64,000 nt of DNA from Streptomyces sp. WM6386 (GTDB lineage Bacteria > Actinomycetota > Actinomycetes > Streptomycetales > Streptomycetaceae): contig NZ_JXTE01000028.1 in the NCBI RefSeq assembly GCF_000972385.1, positions 1 through 64,000 of the forward strand, read 5' to 3'. A program made the translations under genes and the position numbers. Under the pieces are notes generated by a model that searched no databases, had not been told where the DNA came from, and saw nothing but the letters and a program-made list of their open reading frames with translations. Shown here in pieces: positions 26,211 to 48,413 of this stretch (its first letter is position 1; every line of letters begins with the position of its first letter).

Positions 26211-26240
26211 GGGGCCTGTCCGCATTTGCGGACAGGCCCC
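26211..26240 (-). terminator. Intrinsic terminator of small RNA copy 1
   Basis: A perfect 13-bp stem (GGGGCCTGTCCGC with its complement) and a 4-nt loop. On the minus strand it is followed by ATACGTTTTTC, a real U-tract, which is unusual in GC-rich Streptomyces. It starts 6 nt after the tRNA-like body. It may also serve the HAD gene from the other side. Confidence 0.88.
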
Positions 26241-26246
26241 AGATCG

Positions 26247-26316
26247 AGCGCCGGGCAGGCCTTGCACCTGCATCTCCCCGCAGGAAGCGGGGCATCTTTC
26301 CTTGGACGACCAACGC
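26247..26316 (-). ncRNA. tRNA-Gly(UCC)-like small RNA, copy 1
   Basis: A 70-nt element that folds as a cloverleaf. The acceptor is GCGUUGG/CCGGCGC (7 bp, two G-U) with discriminator U. U8 is followed by a D-arm GUC/GAU with loop CAAGGAAA, keeping A14 and the G18-G19 pair. The anticodon arm CCCCG/CGGGG has loop CUUCCUG (anticodon UCC). The variable loop is AGAU. The T-arm GCAGG/CCUGC has loop UGCAAGG. G1-C72, C2-G71, G3-C70, C35, C36 and U73 are the glycine identity set I know. Unlike translating tRNAs, position 55 is G (GUGC, not GUUC), position 37 is U, and the D-stem has only three pairs. CCA is not encoded. A 35-nt leader with its own hairpin (GCAAC/GUUGC) precedes it. The body differs from copy 2 at two sites only. 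Confidence 0.75.
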
Positions 26317-26357
26317 ACTGCCGAGCAACCAGAGTTGCGGCGACCGGCTCGTGATCA

Positions 26358-26363
26358 ACTCTA
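26358..26363 (-). promoter_or_regulatory. -10 box of small RNA copy 1
   Basis: TAGAGT on the minus strand, of TANNNT form, sits 42 nt upstream of the tRNA-like body, exactly as TATGCT does in copy 2. The predicted start is near 26351. No clear -35 box is shared by the copies. Confidence 0.55.
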
Positions 26364-26478
26364 GCGCATGTACGGGGCGGTACTCACCACACGCCAGGCC
26401 CGCCGAATACGTCGTTGCAGGGCTGCCGCGCCCCGAAACTGAAGTGCGTTCGGCCTCAGCGACACCTGTCGTGCGCCC

Positions 26479-48102: not shown

Positions 48103-48255
48103 CCGCGCCGCTGATGATCGTGACAGAGGTCTGGCCCGCCGCTACGGGGGAGAGCGACGGGCCAGCACCTCCACAGTGCCACAGGCGCGCACGAGATGTG
48201 TGGTGTCACGGGAAAGCGGGACGCCGCTCCAGGGAGCCAGAAGGCCGGAAATACA

Positions 48256-48290
48256 CAGAGCCCGTCCCGGACGTACCGGGACGGGCTCTG
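48256..48290 (-). terminator. Intrinsic terminator of small RNA copy 2
   Basis: A perfect 15-bp stem (CAGAGCCCGTCCCGG and its complement) with a 5-nt loop, followed on the minus strand by TGTATTTCC. It starts 6 nt after the body, the same spacing as in copy 1. The stem sequence differs from copy 1 while pairing is fully kept. Confidence 0.85.
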
Positions 48291-48296
48291 TTGTCG

Positions 48297-48366
48297 AGCG
48301 CCGGGCAGGCCTTGCACCTGCATCTCCCCGCAGGAAGCGGGGCGTCTTTCCTTGGACCACCAACGC
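48297..48366 (-). ncRNA. tRNA-Gly(UCC)-like small RNA, copy 2
   Basis: A second copy of the 70-nt element, differing from copy 1 at only two positions. One (position 9) is unpaired in the cloverleaf; the other changes a D-stem G-U to G-C, so structure is kept. All features of copy 1 recur: 7-bp acceptor, U8, A14, G18-G19, anticodon UCC in a 7-nt loop with U33, T-loop with GUGC, and discriminator U. The 47-nt stretch from the body up to and including the -10 box is the same length as in copy 1 but only 31 of 47 positions match, and its hairpin is preserved by AAC/GUU and CC/GG pairs. Strong body conservation with free flanks argues for selection on the RNA. Confidence 0.75.
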
Positions 48367-48407
48367 ACAACCGGAAACCAGGAGTTCTGGCGACCAGCTC
48401 AAGATCA

Positions 48408-48413
48408 AGCATA
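48408..48413 (-). promoter_or_regulatory. -10 box of small RNA copy 2
   Basis: TATGCT on the minus strand, 42 nt upstream of the tRNA-like body, aligned with TAGAGT of copy 1. The predicted start is near 48401. Confidence 0.55.

Follow-up and report, generated by a model that had tools for sequence, protein, structure and literature searches.

The diversion of aminoacyl-tRNA from translation to cell-wall and similar enzymes is unclear in most instances, according to the available part of PMC4052509, which names FemX and VanK as reported users of Gly-tRNA in Streptomyces; DhpK and Orf11 are further, FemABX-like users of Gly-tRNA in this genus (PMC12945691, in part). For Staphylococcus aureus, A49-U65 and A51-U63, replacing G49-U65 and G51-C63, mark tRNA-Gly that is expected to bind EF-Tu weakly and to stay out of translation (PMC4052509), and non-proteinogenic Gly-tRNA has been argued to need U73 as a shield against D-aminoacyl-tRNA deacylase (PMC6097841, in part). 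A different precedent is tRNA-Other of Bacillus cereus, a tRNA-like molecule that plays no part in translation and is contained in longer RNA species (PMC3399842, in part).

Here we describe a family of tRNA-Gly(UCC)-like genes, which we call mimics, together with a core relative that we name Gly*; a search of open-licence papers found none that treats either. The mimics resemble the non-proteinogenic tRNA-Gly of Staphylococcus in having A51-U63 in place of G51-C63 (PMC4052509) and in their U73 (PMC6097841). On the other hand, most mimics keep G18G19, carry G49-C65 rather than A49-U65 and have an abnormal anticodon loop, one that is either 6 nt long or combines C32-G38 with a pyrimidine at position 37. 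They are accessory, often multi-copy genes with an apparent promoter and terminator of their own and no link to FemAB. The GUGC T-loop of the mimics is one that we take to be common to the peptidoglycan Gly-tRNAs of S. epidermidis. That statement was not found in the available part of PMC7912444, and its one match in the available part of PMC7609411 falls within the references. Whereas tRNA-Other is known from one genomic-island border, the mimics are spread over many genomes as a covarying family whose glycine identity is intact.

Two mimics lie in the window, by which we mean the whole 64-kb stretch of DNA that was analysed (Table 1). The sequence-only reading had given the first of these (copy 1) a tRNA-Gly(UCC)-like cloverleaf with a GUGC T-loop, within 48246-48413; this is borne out by ARAGORN, by RF00005 and by our own reading of the sequence, and the coordinates are consistent with a unit that runs from promoter to terminator. 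As read from its sequence (GCGUUGG UG GUC CAAGGAAA GAC G CCCCG CUUCCUG CGGGG AGAU GCAGG UGCAAGG CCUGC CCGGCGC U C), copy 1 would fold with a 7-bp acceptor, a 3-bp D-stem, a 5-bp anticodon stem and the T-stem GCAGG/CCUGC. It has U8, A14, A15 together with U48, and G18G19, one nucleotide of 16/17 being absent; its anticodon loop is CUUCCUG, its T-loop UGCAAGG, and U73 and C74 form its 3' end. The U33, U37, G55 and glycine determinants that had been assigned to it are all correct. Absent from that account were the ability of C32 and G38 to pair and the existence of copy 2, which lies in an 87%-identical stretch (26244-26369) on the same strand as copy 1. In each copy, TANNNT stands at -47, the leader is about 35 nt long and a terminator hairpin of its own follows the body, the hairpin sequence of copy 2 being unlike that of copy 1. 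The leader of copy 1, for which the start site is inferred from the position of the -10 hexamer, is partly conserved in the column consensus (GATCTTGAGC...) and probably forms a hairpin.

Table 1. Coordinates of the two mimic units and of one protein-coding gene in the window
Feature	Position	Strand	Basis and remarks
tRNA-Gly(UCC)-like body, copy 1	48296..48366	-	ARAGORN; RF00005, 39.8 bits; 232-gene comparison
-10-like hexamer TATGCT, copy 1	48408..48413	-	47 nt upstream of body; read from sequence
5' leader of about 35 nt, copy 1	48367..48401	-	76-copy listing and column consensus
Terminator-like hairpin, copy 1	48255..48291	-	Near-perfect inverted repeat (self-match), 3' side T-rich
tRNA-like body, copy 2	26246..26316	-	87% identity over 127 nt; R1, 98.1 bits
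-10-like hexamer TAGAGT, copy 2	26358..26363	-	Sequence; position -47
Terminator hairpin, copy 2	26211..26240	-	Read from sequence; T run after it
nSTAND1 NTPase with WD40 repeats, STAND-type, 1301 aa	19612-23517	-	Pfam

ARAGORN, which the sequence-only reading had proposed as a check, made a single call in the window, tRNA-Gly(tcc) at 48296-48366 on the minus strand, and left copy 2 uncalled. At the gathering threshold, Rfam gave no match in the whole 64 kb; in a permissive scan of 251 nt, the score of copy 1 against RF00005 (cut-off 29) was obtained with the full model covered. Copy 1 is the weakest among the 72 RF00005 matches listed for its own genome, copy 2 is not among them, and a search of this genome at E 0.001 found no further copy besides these two.

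We compiled 251 places, which come to 232 distinct genes after repeats are removed, with the broken copies L162 and L172 left outside the set. Members were found by similarity and the conservation counts rest on that; 125 of the 232 came from a pattern scan in which part of the T-arm and of the 3' end (GCGCTC) is preset, and the remaining 107 offer the fair count. We compared 68 unique bodies (the deletion copy L228 was left out), in 62 of which the anticodon arm could be parsed. The anticodon-stem pairs vary (five pair types at 31-39, four at 30-40) yet remain paired in 62 of these 62 bodies, and at 51-63 (AU, UA, CG), 52-62 (GC, CG, AU) and 6-67 (GC, AU, UG, CG) the pairing is intact in at least 67 of the 68. 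A covariation tool, applied to 26 sequences, gave 97.3% of cells paired and a score of 0.156, both higher than in all 500 shuffles; for the same 26 sequences, the three pairs changed on both sides were reached in 43 of 500 shuffles and the observed value for further pair types in 460, results that we think are partly due to a gap that MAFFT placed in the stem.

Of the 230 genes for which the upstream sequence is long enough, 213 have the hexamer TANNNT within -53 to -40, and in 101 it stands at -47; among 920 control windows, which overlap and lie further upstream, 10 have it. Folding of the 70 nt that follow the gene gives a median of -41.6 kcal/mol (231 genes), compared with -27.6 kcal/mol for the upstream controls (230). 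Because pairs are kept while letters change, the promoter spacing holds and the downstream sequence folds, the mimics are, as judged from sequence, a gene family and not debris. A TG precedes the -10 hexamer by 4-5 nt (81% and 71%), and about 25 nt upstream there is a weak GGT; no clear TTGACA was found upstream of -47 in the family promoters, and these are perhaps promoters of a special type.

The same data bear on the proposal that the mimics are a functionless repeat, either degenerating or mobile. Copy number does vary, there are same-strand arrays and broken copies (L162, L172, L228 and L279), and in two of four annotated plasmid stretches a transposase lies within 4 kb; set against the compensatory changes, the near-constant promoter spacing and the differing terminators around a near-constant body, these points leave this proposal highly improbable. 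Homologues in which the cloverleaf is broken, which the sequence-only reading had named as evidence against itself, are confined to those few copies, and the fold is kept in the others. Eight array loci contain two or three same-strand copies, with a spacing that is mostly 0.8-2.1 kb but reaches 6 kb in L173. A mobile element was considered for them and rejected: the shared unit is just 111-184 bp, approximately the gene itself, and no neighbour recurs. No transposase or phage context recurs at the 121 loci, and the phage and viral searches gave no match. At L049, L060, L193, L209, L229 and L249, two or three same-strand mimics stand 1.1-2.1 kb apart with unrelated genes between them.

The bacterial glycine determinants are U73, G1-C72, C2-G71, G3-C70, C35 and C36 (PMC9976931, in part), and both window copies carry all six. 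Across the family, U73 is present in 232 of 232 genes and the outer three acceptor pairs in 231, the sole exception (L279) having an altered 5' strand; CC is present in 222 of the 230 anticodon loops that could be parsed, and the eight exceptions all belong to one related genus, g14, with the loop CUUUCAG (UUC, without C35). Counts for the 107 non-pattern genes are 107 for U73, 107 for the T-loop UGC, 107 for the three outer pairs and 99 for CC. These 107 genes come down to 39 unique bodies. Among them the three glycine pairs are invariant, as is 53-61, and every other pair of the acceptor and the T-stem varies. Four of the 17 acceptor, anticodon and T-stem pairs are invariant in intact copies and three of these four are the glycine pairs, for which the chance under random choice is 4/680 by our own arithmetic on unique bodies with the D-stem pairs left out. 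Among the extra contacts of Thermus GlyRS, namely G10, C50-G64 and U16 (PMC9976931), G10 is present, C50-G64 is found in 212 of 232 genes and U16 is absent. All 60 genomes searched appear to have one dimeric-type GlyRS (three pieces each; four in G094), and no second enzyme was found in any of them; the idea of a GlyRS dedicated to the mimics was accordingly rejected.

What these sequences portray is a tRNA-like family that has kept the glycine identity set and lost normal decoding features, with U33 mostly staying. A purine at 37 and a non-Watson-Crick combination at 32/38 matter for decoding, and the three canonical tRNA-Gly of the own genome have A37 and either U32 or C32 with A38. Among the mimics, 23 of 230 loops are of 6 nt (CUCCAA 10, CAGCCG 5, CAACCG 4, CAUCCG 2, CUGCCG 1 and AUCCAA 1); the 207 seven-nucleotide loops have C32-G38 in 206, U33 in 206, U37 in 172, C37 in 26 and a purine at 37 in nine. 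The non-pattern genes account for 14 of the 6-nt loops, and C32-G38 pairing is possible in 93 of their 93 seven-nucleotide loops. The mimics do not have an elongator-type loop (7 nt, purine 37, non-Watson-Crick 32/38), though they do have U33, nor do they have the elongator T-loop U54-U55-C56, since UGC, and thus G55, occurs in 232 of 232 genes. In the T-stem, canonical Gly(UCC) of the own genome pairs G49 with U65 and G51 with C63. Of the 232 mimics, by contrast, 222 have A51-U63, 229 have G49-C65 and one has G49-U65, and from sequence only these look like weak EF-Tu pairs. G18G19 is kept, as AAGG in the D-loop of the window copies and the aligned bodies, so its replacement is not a trait of the family; it is replaced in core Gly*, in the g14 genes and in L160, and L161 has AAGU.

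The non-translational role that had been suggested for copy 1 gains from these features, in that 6-nt loops, C32-G38 and a pyrimidine at 37 argue against translation, though U33 in 206 of 207 loops does not. We regard it as extremely improbable that the mimic is an ordinary extra, somewhat divergent tRNA-Gly(UCC) for translation. Acceptance of copy 1 by ARAGORN and RF00005, and the prevalence of U33, would suit such a tRNA; the anticodon-loop anomalies would not, nor would the presence of a canonical Gly(UCC) or the 58 of 121 genomes in which no mimic was matched.

Bearing in mind that glycine identity is kept and the anticodon loop is abnormal, the mimic is predicted to be charged and then to be a likely source of glycine outside the ribosome. 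We hypothesize, tentatively and giving it somewhat less than an even chance, that the mimic is a glycine-charged, non-decoding tRNA that donates its glycine to a non-ribosomal aminoacyl-tRNA-dependent enzyme. Such a stand-alone RNA would be transcribed from its own promoter; RNase P and tRNase Z would trim the precursor, and CCA would be added. The cell's single GlyRS would then glycylate it, U73 would shield Gly-mimic from D-aminoacyl-tRNA deacylase, EF-Tu would bind it weakly through A51-U63, with G49-U65 and G51-C63 missing in nearly all copies, and the glycine would be handed to the proposed enzyme. Several observations count against donation: the eight g14 genes read UUC and are without C35; U33 persists; a C32-G38 pair would make the loop smaller and might be an obstacle to GlyRS, and the Thermus-type U16 is absent; UCCA is gene-encoded in just 92 of 232 mimics; and the presence of mimics is patchy (63 of 121 genomes), without tracking by FemAB, a common neighbour or an extra GlyRS. 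A large family that carries the charging code without normal decoding, in the main antibiotic-producing genus, would offer many natural variants with which to address how aminoacyl-tRNA is diverted.

The main rival to donation is that the mimic acts as a decoy or sensor that binds GlyRS, is maybe charged, passes glycine to no acceptor, and tunes or signals the Gly-tRNA pool. This would call on the same identity elements and would accord with our finding no recipient enzyme and with the several copies in many genomes; the conservation of U73 and C74 suggests, however, a role for the 3' end, no regulatory target is known and an entire elbow is more than a decoy needs, and we consider this explanation unlikely. 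Less probable again is a small regulatory RNA with a stable tRNA fold, whose C-rich loop (UUCC) would pair with Shine-Dalgarno-like sequences. Here the CC in an exposed loop (222 of 230) would be put to use, leader and terminator would make a longer RNA, and tRNA-Other is a precedent (PMC3399842), but the frozen glycine acceptor pairs and U73 would be left unexplained while other acceptor pairs vary.

A blastn search with the RNA detects the mimic family in 63 of 121 Streptomyces genomes and gives no match in the other 58. Each carrier has 1 to 7 matches; G035 matches over 40 bases only, and one of three in G000 is the terminator's own inverted repeat. Mimics are also found in 70 plasmid records (68 of Streptomyces, 2 of Streptantibioticus), and a pattern scan of genomes gave at least 120 stretches, all from Streptomyces among those listed, bar one from Actinacidiphila; records of S. 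griseofuscus and S. lavendulae are among those with copies. No match was found in 50,697 phage records or, with the exact pattern, in viral contigs. The mimic is not a chance occurrence, because 63 of 121 genomes and 70 plasmid records match and the stems covary; it probably spread by duplication, linear plasmids included. A covariance model, R1, detects mimic members in the own bacterial family, and in a search of the class it matched 41 of 296 genomes, 18 of these being Streptomyces. The best R1 score outside Streptomyces in this search was 50.5 bits, and the six of the 23 non-Streptomyces genomes that were read all had GTTC T-arms, that is, ordinary tRNAs; in G189, G211 and G255 the R1 match arises solely from Gly*.

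An accessory, multi-copy RNA that is plasmid-borne too might be a decoy for enzymes that attack Gly-tRNA, either anticodon nucleases or TacT-like acetyltransferases; the latter read U73 and G71 (PMC9976931), which the mimics conserve. We nevertheless judge this very improbable: no recurring gene lies beside the copies, the variable loop length makes nuclease mimicry less likely, and the phage records and, by exact pattern, the viral contigs gave no match.

The sequence-only reading had gone further and envisaged a dedicated glycine donor for FemX or VanK, with co-occurrence of the copies and femX/vanK as one proposed check. The comparison does not support this. FemAB was found in 60 of 60 Streptomyces genomes, comprising 30 carriers and 30 non-carriers (20 chosen by blastn and 10 by R1), so that it is present in every genome, half of them without a mimic, and does not track the family. 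More than one FemAB was counted in 19 of 30 carriers and 15 of 30 non-carriers, these protein numbers being inferred from PF02388, which gives two pieces per protein among the matches listed. FemAB is also found in 25 of 25 own-family genomes, including seven without Gly* (six of g14, one of g11). Since FemAB is present without the mimic or without Gly*, neither RNA is strictly required wherever FemAB occurs. The mimics show no co-occurrence with FemAB, and no gene of that kind was found beside them. No shared neighbour gene was found either: no protein cluster extends to more than 8 of the 121 loci, some of the eight being one place fetched twice or orthologous positions, and part of it consists of positions beside a gene that we take to be tsaD-like. 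Between 18 and 50 kb in the window, 19 ORFs were scanned and 11 have Pfam matches, with no aminoacyl-tRNA-using enzyme among the 11; besides the NTPase in Table 1, these are a two-component pair, an exo/endonuclease-phosphatase family protein, a LacI regulator, a beta-galactosidase, a FAD-binding protein, a protein kinase, a P450, a HAD hydrolase and a transporter component.

Gly* of the own genome lies upstream of Gly(GCC), at G000:C190:81483-81554 on the plus strand (L336:1501-1572), and is uncalled by ARAGORN, which does call some Gly* relatives. Gly* and the mimic share the glycine acceptor identity, UCC, the UGC T-loop, A51-U63 and C50-G64; in contrast to the mimic, Gly* combines U33 with A37, is without G18G19, has an extra U in the T-stem and is present in 121 of 121 Streptomyces genomes. 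This last count comes from the model R2: the best match in each genome scores at least 94.9 bits, and the next class of match reaches 72.1 bits. The genes used to build R2 come from nine of the genomes searched (G000, G058, G189, G195, G199, G211, G237, G255 and G267), which match by construction. Some genomes have Gly* in tandem. In the own family, 18 of 25 genomes have Gly* at 85 bits or more; those below are six of six g14 genomes and one of g11.

For copy 1, identity is 67% with Gly* and no higher than 62% with any other tRNA read in its own genome, and the G064 and g7 types are 66% and 67% identical to Gly* compared with at most 59% to Gly tRNAs. Because these are closest to Gly*, the mimic probably descends from core Gly*, with a reservation from the 6-nt-loop type of G058, which shares 63% identity with canonical Gly(UCC) and 59% with Gly*. 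As a candidate for the Streptomyces cell-wall donor Gly* is a direct one and would fit better than the mimic, though not strictly. It is conceivable, if on the doubtful side, that glycine delivery outside translation has two tiers in streptomycetes, in which universal core Gly*, its elbow pairs lost, would be accompanied by a spreading, multi-copy, decoding-dead offshoot serving accessory, strain-specific chemistry. In three genomes of genera g2 and g5 (L387, L388 and L389), Gly* retains a D-loop GG and a T-loop UUC; the two elbow-contact partners may have been lost together later. The g14 genomes have divergent tRNA-like genes (L158:3348-6219, L159, L164 and L165) with the loop CUUUCAG, a UGC T-loop and no G18G19, and in L158 three same-strand tRNA-like copies are found within 3 kb.
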